Shown one piece after another: positions 9,840 to 19,721 of a DNA stretch of 34,728 bases. Under the pieces are notes generated by a model. That model was not told the DNA's origin and ran no database searches. It worked only from the letters and a program-made list of their open reading frames with translations. Both the position numbers and the translations under genes were made by a program. The stretch's first letter is position 1, and each line of letters begins with the position of its first letter. Where the stretch lies: assembly GCA_030747785.1 (NCBI GenBank), contig JASLKC010000025.1:1-34728 (forward strand), in the 5' to 3' direction. Origin of the DNA: Candidatus Poseidoniaceae archaeon. GTDB taxonomy: Archaea > Thermoplasmatota > Poseidoniia > Poseidoniales > Poseidoniaceae.

Positions 9840-11048
9840 ATGAATATCCACGAATATCAAGGAAAGGCGCTGTTCAAAGCGAACGGCGTATCCGTCCTAG
9901 AGGGAATACACTGCACCGATGTAGCAGGAGCCCTTGCAGCATATGACAGCCTTGGAAGTAAAGTTGTAGCTGTTAAGTCGCAAATACATGCTGGCGGTCG
10001 TGGAAAGGGTAACCTATACCATCCAGAGACTAGGGAATTGGTCATGGAAGGTGGAGTGAAAATCGCCTTCTCCAGAGAGGAAGTTGAGGAGTATTCAAGC
10101 AATATTCTCGGTAATATGCTAGTTACAATTCAGTCGGGTGAAGAAGGGAAATTAGTCAACAATATCTACATTGAATCCGGATGCGATATCGCTCACGAAT
10201 ACTATCTTGCACTACTTGTGGACCGTGAAAATAAGTCTGTTCTTATCATGGCTTCGACCGAGGGTGGAATGGATATCGAGCATGTTGCTGAACACACACC
10301 TGAAAAAATTCACAAGATCAACATCGATCCAAACTCCGGACTTCTCGGATTCCAAAAGCGTGACCTTGGTATGGCTTTGGGACTATCGGGAGCATCTCTC
10401 AAATCATTTTTCAAGATGCTTGGAAAACTGTACGACCTATTCATCTCCAATGATTGTGCTATGGTTGAAGTCAACCCCTTGGTACGAACCAATGCGGATG
10501 AAATAATTGCATTAGATGCAAAAGTCGGTTTTGATGAGAATGCTGAATTCCGTCACCGTGATTGGGACGACCTTCGAGACCTCTCCGAGGAAGAAGATGT
10601 CGAGACTAGGGCTAAGGAAACTGGACTTTCATATGTCAAACTCGACGGAAATATCGGGTGTTTGGTAAATGGTGCAGGACTGGCAATGGCAACAATGGAC
10701 GTCATCAAATTATACGGTGGAGAGCCGGCAAATTTCCTTGATGTCGGTGGCGGTGCTGACGAAGAACAAGTCAAGACTGCTTTCTCTATTATTCTTGAAG
10801 ACCCAAATGTGAAAGGGATCTTAGTCAACATCTTTGGTGGAATTATGCGTTGCGATATTATCGCAAGAGGAGTCATCGCTGCCACAAAGGCTCTGAGCCT
10901 AGATGTGCCCTTAGTAGTGCGTTTAGCCGGAACAAATGTCGATGAAGGCAAGGCTATTCTCGCAGAATCTGGACTCAATATTCATCCTGCTGACGATTTA
11001 GCAGAAGGCGCACAGAAGATTGTTGCATTAATTGGTGGAGGTGCTTGA
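9840..11048 (+). CDS. sucC: Succinyl-CoA synthetase (ADP/GDP-forming) beta subunit
   Basis: The beta subunit binds the nucleotide and, with SucD, converts succinyl-CoA to succinate with formation of ATP or GTP in the citric acid cycle. It has 402 residues and starts with the canonical [12 protein letters not shown]. The ATP-grasp domain covers about residues 1-240 ([17 protein letters not shown], then MVEVNPLV with Asp/Asn Mg2+ ligands). The C-terminal ligase domain contains [21 protein letters not shown] and the subunit-contact region. GGAG lies 6 bases before the ATG. sucD follows after a single base. The frame and key motifs are intact. It diverges from the sugar nucleotidyltransferase gene. 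Confidence 0.97.
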
Positions 11049-11049
11049 A

Positions 11050-11973
11050 ATGGCAATTTGGATTCAAGAAGATGCAAAGGTACTCGTTCAGGGAATTACC
11101 GGAAAGCAAGGTATGTTCCATGCTGGTAAGATGGTCGAATATGGCACCAACCTAGTTGGTGGAGTTACCCCCGGAAAGGGTGGCCAAACTGTCGAACTAG
11201 AGGGAGGAAATTACCCTGTATTCAATAGCATGGTCGGTGCAATTACTGAAACCGATGCAGATGCAACAGTGATCTATGTGCCACCTCCATTTGCTGGTGA
11301 AGCAATTATCGAAGCAGCAAATGCATTCCACACCGTGAAAGGTGAGGGAGTAATTGTGTGCATTACTGAAGGTATTCCTACACTTGACATGGTCAAGGCT
11401 ACAGCATATGTGGCAAACCGACCCGGTGTACGCCTGATTGGACCAAATTGCCCAGGTATCATTACACCAGGAGAAAACGGTGGAGCCAAACTCGGCATTA
11501 TGCCTGGACATATTCACGCAAAGGGAAGAATCGGAATTGTTTCCAAATCTGGAACACTCACATATGAGGCAGTTGCTCAAACTATGAGTATCGATGAAGG
11601 TCAATCGACCTGCATTGGTATTGGTGGCGACCCTGTAAATGGTACTGGATTCATCGAGTGCCTATCCGCCTTCCAAAACGATCCTCAAACAGAAGCCATT
11701 GTCATGATCGGCGAAATCGGCGGAAATGCTGAACAAGAAGCCGCAGAATGGGCTACTGCAAATTGCACTAAGCCGATTGTTGGATTCGTAGCAGGAGCTA
11801 CCGCACCACCTGGAAAGAGGATGGGCCATGCTGGCGCCATCATCTCTGGTGGAAAGGGTACTGCTGAGGAAAAGTTCGCTGCTTTTGAAGCCGCAGGTAT
11901 CGCATGTGCACGCGACCCAAGTGAACTAGGTCAAGTATTGCTTACAAGCCTCAAGGCTGCAGGTCTACGCTGA
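11050..11973 (+). CDS. sucD: Succinyl-CoA synthetase alpha subunit
   Basis: The alpha subunit binds CoA and carries the phosphorylated histidine of succinyl-CoA synthetase. The start at 11050 gives [21 protein letters not shown], 307 residues. The CoA-binding Rossmann domain includes GITGKQG and [28 protein letters not shown] marks the domain junction. The active-site loop [20 protein letters not shown] carries the phospho-histidine. A strong site GGAGGTG (11037-11043) lies inside the end of sucC, so translation is coupled, with one base between stop and start. The stop is 3 bases from the convergent zinc-ribbon gene. Confidence 0.97.
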
Positions 11974-11976
11974 GAT

Positions 11977-13239
11977 TCAATTCGGCGGACTGCGCTTTGG
12001 GCCACCAGGTGGGCCACGTTTTGGGCCGCCAGGAGGGCCGCCTCGCTTTGGAGGACCGCCGCCACTTGGACCGGGAGGGCCGCCTCGCTTTGGAGGGCCT
12101 CCGCCACTTGGACCAGATGGACCACCTCGCTTTGGAGGACCGCCACGACTTGGACCGGGTGGACCGCCGCGACTTGGACCGGGTGGACCACCTCGCTTTG
12201 GAGGACCACCACCAGATGGACCTGGAGCATCCTCGTCCTCGAACATCGCACCGCAATGGGGACAAGTGTTGTCGGATTCTTTGACAAGGCCTTCACAGAC
12301 TTCGCAAGCAAACATCTCTTCATCGGATTCTGGTTCAGCCTTGGGTGTAGCAATACCTGGTCCGATTACCTTCTCGATAGAACCATCCTTTGAACGGAAA
12401 AGGCTGATCTCAACTACGGCATCCATTCCTTTGAGGGCAATCTCTGTAGAGATTGCATGTTCGAAAGCCGAGGACAAATCCCCGGGGGTATCGAGTACTC
12501 GACCGTCATCAACATATGTGACATTGACATTAAGGAGTCCACCTTCTAATTTGATCTGAGGTGTTTCAACTGCAACTCCACGCTTGCGAGCAACACGACG
12601 AACAGCAACCTCTGACATTCTGCGGTAGAGTGCTTCGTTTCCAGCATCTCCCTTACCTCCACCAATAGTGCTCTCAAGGAAATCTGCCGCACTGTTATCA
12701 GCACCACCCCCTCTTAGATGGGATGGTAATTCTCCACCGATTGAACTGAGCACATTTGCGGCGGATTCCTGATTCATCTGTAACCATTGGCTACGACGCT
12801 CATTCTTCACCTGGCGTTCTGCTTCAGCAATACGGTTGACCATTGCATCGGTTGGAGATAATGATGGATTCTGGGAAACTGAAATTCCACCTGGTGTGAA
12901 TGGGCCTTCGCCCTGTAAAGGAGGCATTCCTTGTTGAAGTTCTGGATTTGGAGGCATCTGGCCCGGTTGCATGCCTTGAGCGATTTGTCCCATTAGGTCT
13001 GGCATCATCCCAGGAGGCATTCCTACGCCGCCCATGTTCTGGGCATTTTGCTGGATTACAGCCTCGCCAGAAACCACTCCGAAATTGCGTCCACCAGCGA
13101 CCTGTTGGCCGGATAGCCCGACATTGCCAACACCGGGAATTGCGCCTGCTCGACTAAGTTCTTGACGAGAACCACATTCAGGACAGAATATGCTGTCATC
13201 TGGAATTACTTCAATGCAAGAGCCGCACTGCATACCCAT
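11977..13239 (-). CDS. Double zinc-ribbon protein with Gly/Pro/Lys/Arg repeat tail
   Basis: Unknown function, 420 residues (starting at 13233 would remove two). An N-terminal zinc ribbon has Cys5, Cys8, Cys19 and Cys22 (CGSC...CPECGS). Next comes a Met/Pro/Gln/Gly-rich linker (about 30-130). A mixed alpha/beta region follows (about 180-295), with RRMSEVAVRRVARKRGV and a beta segment LLNVNVTYVDDGRVLD. A second zinc ribbon (ACEVCEG...CPHCGAMF) is followed by a tail of about 80 residues built from GGPPKRGGPPGPS units. The basic, disordered RGG-like tail resembles RNA-binding or condensate-forming tails; this is an inference from composition. It diverges from the hpnE operon. An inverted repeat lies directly upstream of the start. 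Confidence 0.8.
   Translation of the reverse strand: MGMQCGSCIEVIPDDSIFCPECGSRQELSRAGAIPGVGNVGLSGQQVAGGRNFGVVSGEAVIQQNAQNMGGVGMPPGMMPDLMGQIAQGMQPGQMPPNPELQQGMPPLQGEGPFTPGGISVSQNPSLSPTDAMVNRIAEAERQVKNERRSQWLQMNQESAANVLSSIGGELPSHLRGGGADNSAADFLESTIGGGKGDAGNEALYRRMSEVAVRRVARKRGVAVETPQIKLEGGLLNVNVTYVDDGRVLDTPGDLSSAFEHAISTEIALKGMDAVVEISLFRSKDGSIEKVIGPGIATPKAEPESDEEMFACEVCEGLVKESDNTCPHCGAMFEDEDAPGPSGGGPPKRGGPPGPSRGGPPGPSRGGPPKRGGPSGPSGGGPPKRGGPPGPSGGGPPKRGGPPGGPKRGPPGGPKRSPPN
11980..12225 (-). repeat. GC-rich tandem repeat coding for a GGPPKRGGPPGPS tail
   Basis: Imperfect units of about 27-42 bp repeat the words cctcgctttgga and ccacttggacc on the plus strand. They stay in frame with the zinc-ribbon gene, encoding GPS(G/R)GGPPKRGGPP units. 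Local GC is far above the rest of the window. Array length is likely to vary between strains through slippage. Confidence 0.8.
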
Positions 13240-13254: not shown

Positions 13255-13349
13255 CTGGGTTGATTCCCAATAAAGCCTTGTGACGCTGAGAGCGTATTAT
13301 CTGTCCACTTCAGGAGAAGGTTCATCCACACCGAGCCAGACCATTGACC

Positions 13350-14711
13350 ATGCGAGGGCGCACCATTGCGGTCATCGGCGGAGGCCTCGCAGGAATTACT
13401 TCTGCCATTGCATTGGCTGATGCTGAGTGCAAGGTCACCTTGTTTGAAGCAAGAGGGCACCTTGGAGGTAGAGTTGGTAGTGTCAAACATCCACGTCTCG
13501 GTATCGAAGTGGACAACTGCCAGCATGCTGCATTCCGAGTATATGATCGCTTTTTCCAATTGATCGGAAGAGCCGGTGCACAGAATATTGTGAAGATACA
13601 ACCCAAAACCAACCTGATGTTTGCATCACCTCAGAAAAAGAACTTCGCTGCACTTGCTACTGGAAAGATGGCACCACCTAACCATATGGTAAGATCAATG
13701 CTGAAATTTCCATTCCTGGGCCTATTGGACAAACTCAAGATGCGCGCAGTCGTGAAGGCCCTGAGTAAATTCGATGATGAAAGTCAATGGGAACTCGATG
13801 ATATTAATTTCAGAACTTGGCTTGAATCCAAGGGGCAAACAAAACGTGCAATAAACCGTTTTTTCGGTTTCTTTACGATGGCTGCACTAAATATCGATAT
13901 TGATGAAGCAAGTGCTGCACAAGGGATTATGTTACTCCGCCACGGATTATTTGGCGCCGCTGATGCCTTTGATGTTGTAGCATTTACCAACCATCTCGGA
14001 GCTGCAATGGAAGGTGCATTCTCTGACGCACTTGAAAATGCGGGCGTTGAGGTCAAACTCAACAACTCGGTGAAGTCGCTCGATGAACTTACAGAATTCG
14101 ATGCGATTGTTGTCGCACTTCCACCCCATTTAGCGGCCCAAATAACTGGAATGAAAAATGAACTTGAATATCGTGCATTGATTGGCATTCACGCGTTCTA
14201 TAGGGGAAATAGGTTGCCAAAAGATTTCAGTTTTGCCACAATGGTAGATGAACCCTTAATCCAGATGATTTTCAACCGTGATAACGAGATAGATAACCAA
14301 GTTGAGGAAGGTGTGCAATGGATCACAGTACCGGTATCTGCCGCTGACCCACATCTAAAAACAAGTGATGAAGAGATGTTATCAGAATTAGATCGGGTTC
14401 TCGATTCACTTTGGCCAGACGGTAAGGATGTAGAGCGTATCGACCACTTGATTGTAAAGACTCCAAAAGCAACCTTTGCACCCACTCCTGGAAGTGCTGC
14501 TCACAGGCCTAAGGTCGATGCATTAGGAGAAAATATCGCCCTTGCCGGCTCACATACAATGACTGGATGGCCATCTACTATGGAGGGTGCAGTACGTTCA
14601 GGATTAACTGCAGCCGCACACATTCTTGGACGAGATTATTCTCATGACCAACCTTGGGAGGGTTGGCCCAGTAGCCCGAAAAGAGGCGAAGAAGGCTGGA
14701 GGGTTTGGTGA
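13350..14711 (+). CDS. hpnE: Squalene-associated FAD-dependent desaturase / hydroxysqualene dehydroxylase
   Basis: In bacteria HpnE performs the last step of the three-enzyme squalene route, reducing hydroxysqualene to squalene. The ATG at 13350 gives 453 residues. The N-terminus is an FAD-binding Rossmann motif (TIAVIGGGLAGITSAIAL, then LFEARGHLGGRVGS). The segment GIEVDNCQHAAFRVYDRF matches the HpnE type, where CrtI carotene desaturases differ. The C-terminal FAD motif is LAGSHTMTGWPSTMEGAVRSG. The middle part has the ALNIDIDEASAAQG helix typical of the amine-oxidase-like desaturase group. A carotenoid desaturase role cannot be excluded by sequence alone, but overlap with hpnC by one base (TGATG) and the following hpnD strongly favour squalene. 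It is the first gene of a likely four-gene operon. Confidence 0.87.
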   Translation: MRGRTIAVIGGGLAGITSAIALADAECKVTLFEARGHLGGRVGSVKHPRLGIEVDNCQHAAFRVYDRFFQLIGRAGAQNIVKIQPKTNLMFASPQKKNFAALATGKMAPPNHMVRSMLKFPFLGLLDKLKMRAVVKALSKFDDESQWELDDINFRTWLESKGQTKRAINRFFGFFTMAALNIDIDEASAAQGIMLLRHGLFGAADAFDVVAFTNHLGAAMEGAFSDALENAGVEVKLNNSVKSLDELTEFDAIVVALPPHLAAQITGMKNELEYRALIGIHAFYRGNRLPKDFSFATMVDEPLIQMIFNRDNEIDNQVEEGVQWITVPVSAADPHLKTSDEEMLSELDRVLDSLWPDGKDVERIDHLIVKTPKATFAPTPGSAAHRPKVDALGENIALAGSHTMTGWPSTMEGAVRSGLTAAAHILGRDYSHDQPWEGWPSSPKRGEEGWRVW

Positions 14712-15667
14712 TGGCTGAAAAGTTTGATTGGGGCGAGCATTCACTCGAACCTGTTTTCCTTGCCGGCTGGGATACCAAGCAAGACAACGAATCTGCACAG
14801 GCGTACTGCTCGCTAATTGCGCGTTCTCATTATGAGAATTTCATCATCTCAAATAAGTTCACACCGGCTCAAATAAGACAACACATCGAGAATGTCTACG
14901 CATTTTGTCGCTATGGAGATGACCTCGGTGATGAGGCACCTTTCCCTGAAGAGGGGAGATTGATATTGCTAGATGCATGGGAGGATGACCTTGCAGAAGC
15001 TGCAAAAAACGACTGGTCTGGAAATCCAAGGCATCCAATTTTGCGTGCCATTCAAATCACAAGTAGGGAGTTTTCTATTCCACATGAGCCATATTGGAAA
15101 TTGATTCAAGCATTCAAGATGGACCAAACAAAGAAACGATATTCCGATTGGTCTGAACTCGAGAACTACTGTATCCACTCTGCAGATCCTGTCGGCCATC
15201 TCTTCCTCTACGTCTATGGGCATGATGATGAGAATATGCGAAATATCTCAAATGCCACATGTACGGCGTTACAACTCGCTAACCATTGGCAAGATATTTC
15301 TAGAGATTGGGAACAAGGCCGTTCATACATACCCCAAACTACTCTTGACAAATACGACATTTCATGGGAGCAGTACTCTAAGTGTGTAGCCACTGACTCA
15401 TGGCGTTCGATGTTGAAGTTTGAAGTTGAAAGAGCACAGAAACTCTTTGATGAAGGCAAGGAATTATGGGGGCTGGTAAACCCTCATCTTGCAGTTGATT
15501 TGATGATGTTCACCAAGGGTGGTGAAGCCGTCTTAGAAAGCATCAGAAAGCAACACTACGACACATGGACTAAGCGTCCAAGAGTCTCCAAACTCAAGCA
15601 GATGCTTCTATTTTTCAAGGCCAAGAGGGCTTGGCGTAAAGCAGGTCGTTACGCCCGTAGGGCGTGA
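14711..15667 (+). CDS. hpnC: Squalene synthase-like HpnC (hydroxysqualene synthase)
   Basis: HpnC converts presqualene diphosphate to hydroxysqualene. It has 318 residues; the ATG at 14711 overlaps the hpnE stop by one base. The all-alpha trans-isoprenyl diphosphate synthase fold is indicated by two acidic motifs. The first is Y68-G-D-D-L-G-D-E75. The second is QDISRDWEQGRSYIP starting at Gln194, with Asp195 and Asp199. The N-terminal block AYCSLIARSHYENFII and the FCRYGDDLGDE form are those of HpnC, where CrtB phytoene synthases usually show DxxxD with a different flank. The product would act on the HpnD intermediate made by the next gene. About 30 bases separate it from hpnD. Confidence 0.87.
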   Translation: MAEKFDWGEHSLEPVFLAGWDTKQDNESAQAYCSLIARSHYENFIISNKFTPAQIRQHIENVYAFCRYGDDLGDEAPFPEEGRLILLDAWEDDLAEAAKNDWSGNPRHPILRAIQITSREFSIPHEPYWKLIQAFKMDQTKKRYSDWSELENYCIHSADPVGHLFLYVYGHDDENMRNISNATCTALQLANHWQDISRDWEQGRSYIPQTTLDKYDISWEQYSKCVATDSWRSMLKFEVERAQKLFDEGKELWGLVNPHLAVDLMMFTKGGEAVLESIRKQHYDTWTKRPRVSKLKQMLLFFKAKRAWRKAGRYARRA

Positions 15668-15696
15668 AACACAAATTACCCTCATACTCATAACTG

Positions 15697-17022
15697 ATGA
15701 GTGGCCAAGATATTACGAGCGACATGCTGGAACGCCGAAAACCACTCGATTTGCTCTTCCCTCTGGAGGGCGGAGCATCAAGGCAGGTAGACGAGGATTC
15801 CAACACACAAGTTACTGCTCTAGACCGATTTCGTGCTGCGGTCAACCTGACTAAAGATGCGGTAAAGGCGGTTAGCCTAACTGCAATGGAAGCACTACGT
15901 GAAGGTGCTGCTCTAATCGGAATAGTTGGCGAGCAAAATGAACTCATCGACCCATTCGTCCACCTCGATGCGCCGATCTGGGCTCGTGACCCACCGATTG
16001 AATTAATGCGCCTTGCCTATGCTTACTGTGAAGAATTAACTATGCGAGAAGCTGGAAACTTCTACCACTCATTCAAGTATTTACCAGACGAGCAAAGGCA
16101 AGCAATGTGCGCAGTCTATGCATTCTGCCGACGTGCAGATGACATTGCTGATGGCGACTGGCAAGACCACTTCCCTGGTTCGCAAGGAGAAATGGACCCA
16201 GAGGCTGTAGCATACCGAGAGAAACTCGAGAGCCTACAGAACAAGGATACAATCCTCCAAGAAGATATGTATTTGCAGAAGATTACCCAACTCTTCTTCT
16301 TCCGTAAGAAACTCTCAACCTGCTACACTGAAGTTAGTAGCACTGACCCGGTATTCCTAGCGCTAAAGGACACTGTGACCCGATATGGAATCCCACGTTC
16401 AGTTTTCGATGACCTGATTACCGGCATGGAAGAGGATCTGTACAATAACAGATATCGAACCTTTGACGAACTCTACCTCTACTGCTACCGTGTAGCATCG
16501 GTCGTCGGTCTAATGTGCATTGAAATCTACGGATACGATGACCCTCGTGCTCAGAAATACGCAGAGTCATGGGGCATATTCATGCAGTTGACAAATGTCC
16601 TCAGAGATATTGGAGAAGATATCCAAAGAGACAGGGTATACCTCCCACTCGATGAACTTGAGTCCAACGGAATAGGTGAATCCGAACTTGGTGGAAATGT
16701 AGTTTTGAACACCACTTGGGAACCTTATGTTCACAACTATGCAAAGAGAGCTAGAACATATCTCGAAGAGGCTAAGAAACTCTTGCCACTCCTTCCTCGA
16801 CGCTCGCGCTACTCGCCTGCTGCAATGATTGCCTTCTACGACAAGATTCTGCGACAAATTGAGAGGCAACAGGGTGATGTTTTCACCAAGAGAGTGAAGT
16901 TGAACAAGTTGCAAAAGTTGTCTCTTGCAGCAGCTGTCTATCTTCGACACAGATTCCTTCCGGGATTCCTTAACCCATTGTGGACTGGATTCAGTAAACT
17001 CGGAATCTTACCAGATGTCTGA
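15697..17022 (+). CDS. hpnD: Presqualene diphosphate synthase HpnD with N-terminal extension
   Basis: HpnD condenses two farnesyl diphosphates to presqualene diphosphate, the first step of the HpnCDE route. The family core starts near residue 108 (CEELTMREAGNFYHSFKYLP). It carries both Asp-rich motifs: DDIAD at 148-152 in FCRRADDIADGD, and RDIGED with Asp304 and Asp308 in LTNVLRDIGEDIQRDRVYLP. The whole protein is 441 residues, well above the usual 280-300, because of an N-terminal extension of about 105 residues with an amphipathic helix (about 45-75), and insertions between the motifs. The extension is in frame and starts with a normal ATG at 15697, so it is probably real. A CrtB-like phytoene synthase role is the main alternative. 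Confidence 0.87.
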   Translation: MSGQDITSDMLERRKPLDLLFPLEGGASRQVDEDSNTQVTALDRFRAAVNLTKDAVKAVSLTAMEALREGAALIGIVGEQNELIDPFVHLDAPIWARDPPIELMRLAYAYCEELTMREAGNFYHSFKYLPDEQRQAMCAVYAFCRRADDIADGDWQDHFPGSQGEMDPEAVAYREKLESLQNKDTILQEDMYLQKITQLFFFRKKLSTCYTEVSSTDPVFLALKDTVTRYGIPRSVFDDLITGMEEDLYNNRYRTFDELYLYCYRVASVVGLMCIEIYGYDDPRAQKYAESWGIFMQLTNVLRDIGEDIQRDRVYLPLDELESNGIGESELGGNVVLNTTWEPYVHNYAKRARTYLEEAKKLLPLLPRRSRYSPAAMIAFYDKILRQIERQQGDVFTKRVKLNKLQKLSLAAAVYLRHRFLPGFLNPLWTGFSKLGILPDV

Positions 17023-17039
17023 TTTTGACGGTGAGAGTA

Positions 17040-18545
17040 ATGGATGATGTCCATCCGTGTCGTGAGAATATCATTCTAGCAATATCAGGATTTTTTCTCG
17101 TACTCCTAGAACCAATTATTCTCCTACTTGGAGGAGATGATATCGGCGGCGCTCTATGGCCGCATGCGATTAGGGCATTATCGTGGAGTTTCATATTGAG
17201 GGAATTACATCTGATGATCTTTGCAATTAGCATAGTAATTACCGGCCTAGTTATCCTGAAGCGTGATTGGAAAAATGATTGGAAAAGGCGAATCGTTTCA
17301 TTGTCGATTGGAGCGATAATAGGGCTCATTCTAATCTTCTTATTATTGGACATAGCCTACTTACGAGGGGCATTCATCCTTCTTCCAGCTGCATATGGAA
17401 TCCTTTTGCTGAATATGCTAATACTCAACTGGGGACTACCTTCTAACCCCGCGAATTGGGAGGACTCAAAGGTAGGACGTTCTATTCACATTCTTGGAAT
17501 TATATTCGCTGTATGGCTTATCGCACCAGGGCTTTCTGCAATGGCTGGACTATCGCCATCACCACCAGAATGGGATGGCGGGCTTGGACCACATGAGTTC
17601 ACTACAGAAATCTCAGCATATACCATGCCGGCTGAAGTTGAATCGATACGTGGTGAATACGAAGCAGACATTACATTCTCAGTTTATCTTACCATTCCAG
17701 ATGTTGATGGAGAAATGCCACTTGCAATCATCCTCCACGGTTTCGCAAATCCTCAATTCAGTACCTACGAAGATTGGGTTGCTCATCTCGCATCTAGGGG
17801 AATGGCAGTAGCTTTCATTCAATATCCATCAGATGTTCTACCCGAAGGACATGATACCTATGTTCTGCATGAGGAGGATGGAATGGCGAACCATCCATAC
17901 CACGTTCCAAGAGCAATCGCATTACAGGCTGGTCTTGACCACGCAGAAAGTCTACTTTCGGCTAATGTCGATACCTCTAATCTTCTAATCGGTGGCCATA
18001 GCCTCGGCGCTGGCTATGCACTGATGGTTATGGACTGGAGTTTGCAGAGAGGATGGGGGAATGAATCACTATTCCTCGACCTTGAGGCACCGTATGCACG
18101 GCCGGTACAGGAACATCTACAAATCGATACTTCACTAATTCCAGAGAATTTCATGGCTCACATTGTCATCAGCGAAGATGATATGAGCGTCAGCGATTGC
18201 TTTGGAGTGCATCACCAAGCACTTCTTGGAGAAAATGCACTCTTCATCGAATCTCCAAGTGATCGCCATGGATTCCCAAGATTGGTTTCTTCCCATTATC
18301 TCCAAGCGAGTGAGACCCACGACACTCTAGCAGATTGGGCATTCTACCGCAGAGTTGCTTCTCAAGCGGATTGGATGGTCACACAAAATGAAAATTCAAG
18401 ACTGGCATTACTCGATTCTGACGAATTCCGCTACATGGGTGAATGGTCAGATGGGACTCCCGTCAAAGAATTGGGAGTATGGGATGATGCCCTATCTAGC
18501 AACGAATTCGACTATTGCGAAGATTGGACTGGCGGTCCTGACTGA
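17040..18545 (+). CDS. Membrane-embedded alpha/beta hydrolase
   Basis: 501 residues. The first about 170 residues hold five predicted membrane helices (near 10-32, 50-72, 83-108, 109-127 and 145-167). A soluble alpha/beta-hydrolase domain follows, probably outside the cell. It shows the oxyanion segment LAIILHGFANPQ and the nucleophile elbow GGHSLGAG with Ser321. SPSDRHGFPR is a candidate for the acid/His region. It resembles chlorophyllase or PAF-acetylhydrolase-type esterases, but the substrate is unknown. I choose ATG 17040 because GGTG lies 6 bases before it; a TTG at 17025 is possible. It follows hpnD by 17 bases, so it is probably in the same operon and may act on an isoprenoid or lipid ester. 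Its stop abuts the stop of the convergent gcdH gene. Confidence 0.78.
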   Translation: MDDVHPCRENIILAISGFFLVLLEPIILLLGGDDIGGALWPHAIRALSWSFILRELHLMIFAISIVITGLVILKRDWKNDWKRRIVSLSIGAIIGLILIFLLLDIAYLRGAFILLPAAYGILLLNMLILNWGLPSNPANWEDSKVGRSIHILGIIFAVWLIAPGLSAMAGLSPSPPEWDGGLGPHEFTTEISAYTMPAEVESIRGEYEADITFSVYLTIPDVDGEMPLAIILHGFANPQFSTYEDWVAHLASRGMAVAFIQYPSDVLPEGHDTYVLHEEDGMANHPYHVPRAIALQAGLDHAESLLSANVDTSNLLIGGHSLGAGYALMVMDWSLQRGWGNESLFLDLEAPYARPVQEHLQIDTSLIPENFMAHIVISEDDMSVSDCFGVHHQALLGENALFIESPSDRHGFPRLVSSHYLQASETHDTLADWAFYRRVASQADWMVTQNENSRLALLDSDEFRYMGEWSDGTPVKELGVWDDALSSNEFDYCEDWTGGPD

Positions 18546-19721
18546 TCACGAATTTCGTGTGAAAGCCTGGATACCTGTAATGTAGCGTCCGATAATCAAG
18601 TTGTGAATATCATGGGTTCCTTCGTAGGTCTTTACCGACTCTAAGTTTGCCATATGGCGCATTACAGGATACTCGTCTAGGATTCCATTTGCACCGTGTA
18701 TATCTCGTGCTTCACGGGCTATTTGCAGAGCGATGTCAACATTGTTCATCTTAGCAAGACTAATCTGTTCGTTGAACCAAGTCCCATCGTCCTTCTTCTT
18801 ACCTAAGTGGTATGCGAGAAGTTGTCCCTTGGTAATCTCACGAAGCATCCATGCCAACTTGTTCTGTACCAATTGGTAACTAGCGATTGGCTCACCAAAT
18901 TGGATGCGAGAGAGAGCATAGGTCTTGGCGGAATGGAAACATGCCATAGCTGCACCAAGTGCACCCCAACTAATTCCAAAGCGTGCATTGTTTAAACACG
19001 AAAATGGACCCCGCAAGCCCTTGACGTCGGGAAGCATTCGGTCCTTTGGAATCTTACAGTCTTGGAATACGAGTTCGCTGGTTACACTCGCTTTGAGAGA
19101 GTGCTTGCCCTTCATCTCTGGAGCGCTGAATCCTTCATCACCTTTCTCGATGATGAATCCCTTGATGACGCCATCTAATTTTGCCCAAACGACTGCAACA
19201 TCTGCGATTGTTCCATTGGTAATCCACATCTTTGCACCATTTAGGAGGTAATGATCTCCTTTGTCTTCGGCCTTGGTAATCATATCACCTGGATTGGAGC
19301 CATAATCTGGCTCGGTCAATCCAAAGCAACCTACCCATTCACCGCTAGCCATTTTGGGAAGATATTTTTCCTTCTGCTCCTCACTACCGAAATCCCAAAT
19401 TGGGTACATAGCAAGTGAGCCTTGAACACTAGCAAAGGAACGTAATCCTGAGTCGCCGCGCTCGAGTTCTTGACAGATTAACCCGTATGCTACATAGGAT
19501 AGTCCTGGGCAGCCATAGCCTTTCAGTGGCGCACCCAATACTCCCATTTCTCCAAGGGCAACACGCCATTCATCTGGGAATACTCCCTCTGCACAAGCGT
19601 GCTCAATTTTTGGAAGAACTTCTTCATCGACCCAATCGCGCACCATGTCACGAATCATTACTTCCTCTTCTGTAAGGAGTGATTCGATATCGTAGAAGTC
19701 GAGTCCTTCAAAGGGCTCCAT
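18546..19721 (-). CDS. gcdH: Glutaryl-CoA dehydrogenase (acyl-CoA dehydrogenase family)
   Basis: FAD enzyme that oxidises and decarboxylates glutaryl-CoA to crotonyl-CoA in lysine and tryptophan breakdown, passing electrons to ETF. 391 residues, the usual length. Family marks include RSFASVQGSLAMYPI, CFGLTEPDYGSNPGDM (FAD/substrate loop), MWITNGTIADVAVVWAK, NNARFGISWGALGAA and the catalytic base Glu367 in VKTYEGTHDIHNLIIGR. These resemble the glutaryl-CoA branch more than short- or medium-chain dehydrogenases, though a related acyl-CoA substrate is possible. GGAG lies 7 bases before the ATG. It starts 43 bases after the propeller-like membrane protein on the same strand. EtfB and EtfA, the likely electron acceptor, are encoded 3 kb away. 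Confidence 0.9.
   Translation of the reverse strand: MEPFEGLDFYDIESLLTEEEVMIRDMVRDWVDEEVLPKIEHACAEGVFPDEWRVALGEMGVLGAPLKGYGCPGLSYVAYGLICQELERGDSGLRSFASVQGSLAMYPIWDFGSEEQKEKYLPKMASGEWVGCFGLTEPDYGSNPGDMITKAEDKGDHYLLNGAKMWITNGTIADVAVVWAKLDGVIKGFIIEKGDEGFSAPEMKGKHSLKASVTSELVFQDCKIPKDRMLPDVKGLRGPFSCLNNARFGISWGALGAAMACFHSAKTYALSRIQFGEPIASYQLVQNKLAWMLREITKGQLLAYHLGKKKDDGTWFNEQISLAKMNNVDIALQIAREARDIHGANGILDEYPVMRHMANLESVKTYEGTHDIHNLIIGRYITGIQAFTRNS

Follow-up and report, generated by a model that had tools for sequence, protein, structure and literature searches.

Can an archaeon make squalene by a route known from bacteria, and what happens to that route in relatives that lack part of it? The question is raised by a stretch of 34,728 nucleotides (contig JASLKC010000025.1, C25 in this analysis, of assembly GCA_030747785.1; termed the window) in which three adjoining open reading frames on the plus strand, at 13350-17022, follow one another in the order HpnE-HpnC-HpnD. 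The window belongs to a metagenome-assembled genome (MAG) of 1.83 megabases, 86% complete and in 59 contigs. In bacteria, the HpnC-HpnD-HpnE pathway to squalene is the one of Pan et al. 2015, to the extent that it is described in PMC5462960 and PMC6439483. Among the genomes of the order Poseidoniales surveyed here, HpnC and a second protein, denoted X, are mutually exclusive. The genes probably encode a working HpnCDE squalene route whose later steps are exchangeable with X, the whole being an old bacterial import followed by displacement by X. For the narrower proposal, the balance tips only modestly in favor: HpnD and X would form a two-enzyme route, a split prokaryotic squalene synthase, in the majority of Marine Group II archaea and in part of the Acidobacteria, with X repeatedly replacing HpnC at a fixed locus, HpnE later lost, and HpnD kept.

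Families of the three adjoining genes

The genes of the window, with the part of HpnD that sets it apart, are the following.

13350..14711, plus strand: HpnE, predicted hydroxysqualene dehydroxylase of the amine-oxidase fold family, dependent on flavin adenine dinucleotide (FAD) (TIGR03467 match and tree)
14711..15667, plus strand: HpnC, predicted hydroxysqualene synthase (TIGR03464 match, match to structure 4hd1, and tree)
15697..17022, plus strand: HpnD-lineage predicted presqualene diphosphate (PSPP) synthase, 441 residues (best NCBIfam family and tree)
15697..16040, plus strand: N-terminal extension of HpnD (comparison with bacterial HpnD and conservation across the order)

HpnE begins with the ATG at 13350, another in-frame start codon (TTG) lying at 13344, and its stop codon overlaps the ATG of HpnC (TGATG). 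A 29-base gap separates HpnC from HpnD, which also starts with ATG.

An earlier note on the window, made from its letters, had assigned the genes to the HpnE, HpnC, and HpnD families, and curated profiles and trees agree. HpnE scores 289.6 bits to NCBIfam TIGR03467, above the cut-off of 283.05, whereas carotenoid-desaturase models give at most 121.5 bits against cut-offs of at least 238. GxGxxG stands at the N-terminal end of the protein and SxxEGAxRSG at the C-terminal end, where the note had seen an HpnE-type FAD motif. Archaeal HpnE forms a single clade next to bacterial HpnE and, in a tree that includes CrtI and CrtN, groups with bacterial HpnE and apart from both. HpnC reaches 285.5 bits to TIGR03464 (cut-off 250.45) and matches the solved Alicyclobacillus HpnC structure, 4hd1, at E = 7.6e-67. 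A tree of the squalene/phytoene synthase family with 97 rows has archaeal HpnC as one clade (support 100) within bacterial HpnC, closest to Chloroflexota and Alicyclobacillus. The Asp-rich motifs (DDLGD and QDISRD in HpnC, DDIAD and RDIGED in HpnD) are intact, and the note too had seen such motifs in both synthases.

The best NCBIfam family for HpnD is likewise HpnD, but its 240.4 bits fall under the cut-off of 278.6; one acidobacterial HpnD that was checked, at 239.6 bits, is also under it. In the 97-row tree, Poseidoniales HpnD is one clade (support 97), sister to a Poseidoniales paralogue denoted T; HpnD and T together join HpnD of Chloroflexota and Alicyclobacillus (82) inside a wider HpnC/HpnD group (96), and the CrtB and CrtM rows fall elsewhere. 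An AlphaFold model of HpnD (mean predicted local distance difference test score, pLDDT, of 80.8) matches CrtM-type head-to-head synthases, with a template modeling score of 0.91 by target length. The extension, which gives HpnD about 85 residues more than most bacterial HpnD have, is present in 58 of 58 Poseidoniales HpnD and contains P[FA]..W as a conserved element; it matches no known domain, and residues 1-72 are mostly below pLDDT 50 in the model.

Paralogue T, derived from HpnD, occupies a separate locus in many Poseidoniales and was not found in the genome of the window. It is possibly a phytoene synthase or another head-to-head synthase. A fourth homologue, which is rare, clusters with the CrtB of Pantoea, and by this grouping a conventional carotenoid route may be present in a few genomes.

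Protein X in place of HpnC

The distribution of the genes was surveyed in 116 genomes of Poseidoniales, gene presence being decided by profile cut-offs in MAGs that are themselves incomplete. HpnD is found in nearly all of them, HpnC in 12, and HpnE in 20. The gene order that the earlier note proposed to look for in other Marine Group II genomes does recur, in more than 20 assemblies, but most relatives have X instead. The locus was read in 20 relatives without HpnC, and in all of them X, a protein of about 340 residues, stands at the place of HpnC and adjoins HpnD. The neighbors are of the same kinds (sucC, sucD, a zinc-ribbon gene, HpnD, and acyl-CoA dehydrogenase), and in the window they lie as follows.

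9840..11973, plus strand: sucC and sucD (succinyl-CoA synthetase), conserved upstream locus markers (locus comparison among relatives)
11977..13239, minus strand: zinc-ribbon protein with a Pro/Gly-rich tail, a neighbor kept in many relatives (locus comparison)
18546..19721, minus strand: acyl-CoA dehydrogenase, downstream neighbor conserved in one family of the order, f1 (profile and locus comparison)

Directly after HpnD, at 17025-18545, the window also encodes a protein of 506 residues that has hydrophobic segments in its N-terminal part, matches alpha/beta-hydrolases weakly, and is 43-58% identical in three genomes of the genus of the window.

With the 20 X sequences from these loci as queries, X was found in 99 of the 116 genomes, whereas all 12 that have HpnC lack it (Fisher p = 9e-13, a descriptive value that overstates independence, the genomes being phylogenetically related). 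Five genomes have neither protein: in three a contig ends next to HpnD, and in two, which give no match whatever to the HpnC model, the locus seems to be missing. HpnE follows HpnC, being retained in 12 of 12 HpnC genomes versus 8 of 99 X genomes. Genus g12 has the order HpnE-X-HpnD, and its HpnE falls among HpnC-bearing lineages in the HpnE tree; X would have replaced HpnC there, with HpnE staying. Well-supported branches of the HpnD tree require at least seven changes of state, and even the genus of the window is divided, with HpnE-HpnC in two genomes and X in three.

In the family tree X sits on the side of the squalene synthases (support 99), on a long separate branch. It aligns with eukaryotic squalene synthase (Sqs) nearly end to end, at about 25-32% identity to the human enzyme in local alignments. 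The motifs SRSF, DT[IV]AD, and K[IVL]xR are present in 20 of 20 X sequences, the last of them presumably corresponding to a loop in the human enzyme linked to reduced nicotinamide adenine dinucleotide phosphate (NADPH). Against the curated Sqs profile, X gives at most 87 bits, far from the cut-off of 286.75. Its closest relatives are proteins of Acidobacteriaceae (about 40-48% identity) and of Burkholderiales, and archaeal X forms a clade of its own. On Burkholderiales chromids the X relative stands alone, apart from HpnD, and some of the same records also hold HpnE. No X was found in viral contigs. Instead of X, other families in this class carry an Sqs-like protein of a more ordinary kind; in a sister family it is a single protein with 150-160 bits to TIGR01559. 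The genome of the window has no Sqs-type protein at E <= 1e-8.

A scheme that would account for this distribution has HpnD as the fixed core in Poseidoniales, joining two farnesyl diphosphates to PSPP, with an exchangeable second half. In one version HpnC would convert PSPP to hydroxysqualene and HpnE, with FAD, would reduce this to squalene. In the other, X would take PSPP to squalene by itself, with NADPH as the probable cofactor, and HpnE would become dispensable. We infer each of these catalytic steps, and the cofactor of X, from the genes.

The exclusion was examined independently in Acidobacteriaceae. A 2017 paper (PMC5462960) had noted four Acidobacteria without hpnE, or without hpnC and hpnE, that nevertheless carry hpnD and a Burkholderia-type fdfT, and offered direct conversion of PSPP to squalene by FdfT as one possibility. 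The Caballeronia proteins found here are likely the FdfT of that paper. Among 150 Acidobacteriaceae genomes, HpnC is present in 133, X in 7, and both in none (p = 7e-8, which likewise overstates independence among related genomes). This stricter test left out two weak acidobacterial X matches (111-113 bits), one of which groups with Sqs. Three acidobacterial X adjoin hpnD. The stretch around each pair also holds hopanoid genes, an HpnJ-like one together with HpnA or HpnG, but no HpnE in the 10-11 kilobases (kb) read. Because hopanoids derive from squalene, these X-HpnD pairs sit in a setting that requires squalene. For the remaining four X of Acidobacteriaceae, no HpnD lies in the 10-11 kb that were read.

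Direction of replacement and competing explanations

The earlier note considered a transfer from bacteria likely. Its premise is borne out, the families being otherwise bacterial and the host, by comparison with named genomes, a member of Candidatus Poseidoniales (Marine Group II). An old import by an ancestor of the order is probable, but no acquisition special to this genome is apparent: HpnD is nearly order-wide, and a single recent transfer into the genome of the window is rejected by the order-wide distribution. The HpnC tree largely tracks HpnD within family f1, and vertical descent of HpnC in the order, with f1 monophyletic, is not rejected (approximately unbiased, AU, test, p = 0.223). 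The genes look old in Poseidoniales, not recently transferred. In the simplest history, an early Poseidoniales ancestor imported the operon once, probably from bacteria; X would afterwards have taken over the position of HpnC in many lineages, most of which would then have lost HpnE.

The reverse direction, with X ancestral and the HpnE-HpnC pair a more recent newcomer swapped in repeatedly by transfer within the order, is a less likely history but one to be taken seriously. X is far commoner (99 versus 12 genomes), and in the rooted HpnC tree family f2 is nested within f1 (93/86), which hints that HpnC was transferred between the two. The trees otherwise speak for HpnC as the older occupant. 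HpnC and HpnE branch largely like HpnD, the nearest bacteria are the same for HpnC and HpnD, and the X tree is out of step with the hosts, genus g5 of f1 falling with f2. The g12 genomes, with X beside an HpnE nested among HpnC lineages, also argue against X as the original gene.

The chief rival to the two-enzyme route concerns chemistry: X by itself might do the whole work of a squalene synthase, so that genomes with X would not depend on HpnD for squalene and HpnD would yield something else, for example a head-to-head C40 lipid. This was the first reading of acidobacterial FdfT in PMC5462960, and it agrees with the position of X on the squalene-synthase side of the tree, with its two Asp-rich motifs, and with the four acidobacterial X that lack a nearby HpnD. 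A full synthase would make HpnD dispensable as well, so the steady pairing of X with HpnD, in the 20 Poseidoniales loci read and in three Acidobacteria, argues against it and renders it rather improbable.

As the product of the three genes, a C30 or C40 carotenoid made in the manner of CrtB/CrtI or CrtM/CrtN is very unlikely compared with squalene. The superfamilies are the same, and HpnD, under its own cut-off, has 187.6 bits to a phytoene synthase model. The trees that the earlier note had called for nonetheless place HpnC and HpnE with their bacterial counterparts and the third protein in the lineage of HpnD, none of them in CrtB or CrtI, and a CrtB/CrtI carotenoid operon is rejected by profiles and trees alike. 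The genome of the window also has no rhodopsin match and no member of the squalene/phytoene synthase family beyond HpnC and HpnD. Bacterial contamination or a chimeric contig, which the otherwise bacterial gene families and a MAG of 59 contigs might suggest, is rejected by synteny and named assemblies, since more than 20 Poseidoniales assemblies, each deposited separately, show this arrangement, with contigs as long as 360 kb, the flanking genes are conserved across the order, and archaeal HpnC is 55-76% identical to that of the window versus at most 45% for bacterial HpnC.

Several points weigh against the proposed exchange of HpnC and HpnE for X in a squalene route. They are the score of HpnD, the hint of HpnC transfer between families, the relatedness of the genomes behind both p values, and the possibility of a complete synthase in X. 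The eight X genomes that keep HpnE belong here too, as HpnE may have another use in them or X may need it. Finally, no squalene-using enzyme was found. The earlier note had seen no squalene-hopene cyclase in the window, and PF13243 has no match in the 86% complete genome or in 40 relatives. In bacteria such a cyclase is common alongside HpnCDE, although it is not required for squalene. The squalene would most simply serve as a neutral membrane lipid or as the precursor of one.

Significance and comparison with known systems

The archaea of Marine Group II, abundant in surface ocean waters, are uncultured, which makes direct study of their lipids difficult. A near-universal synthase of the presqualene type would place squalene, or a close relative of it, in the basic make-up of the group. 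Annotators should not take a lack of hpnC and hpnE for a lack of squalene, a point that bears on squalene and hopanoid biomarkers. The exclusion of X and HpnC, observed in two phyla, moreover gives a strong prediction for the activity proposed in 2017, for which the open-access literature searched holds no later assay. The same literature gave no earlier report of HpnCDE in Marine Group II, though one may have been missed.

Compared with bacterial HpnCDE, the archaeal genes are homologous and adjoining, have intact motifs, and fall within or beside the bacterial families in trees. They differ in the archaeal host, in the order E-C-D (C-D-E in the bacterial loci fetched), in the extended HpnD, in that no cyclase was found, and in the substitution of X for HpnC and HpnE in most relatives. 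The acidobacterial hpnD and fdfT of PMC5462960 are closer to the X loci: X is related to the acidobacterial and Burkholderiales/Caballeronia proteins and occurs with HpnD where HpnC is absent. That case comprised four or five genomes; here the host is archaeal, 99 genomes are involved, the replacement is exactly in place, and X has its own clade. With one-enzyme Sqs/FDFT1, X shares SRSF, DTxxD, K[IV]xR, and its side of the tree, but it differs in its long separate branch, its score far under the Sqs cut-off, and its pairing with HpnD.

In the alga Botryococcus braunii, SSL-1 makes PSPP and SSL-2 turns PSPP into squalene (PMC4823828), so a split between HpnD and X is chemically possible. If the proposed activities hold, the PSPP and squalene steps would in both cases reside in two proteins. 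The lineages are different, however, as SSL-1 is an algal relative of squalene synthase, whereas in Marine Group II the PSPP step would belong to HpnD.

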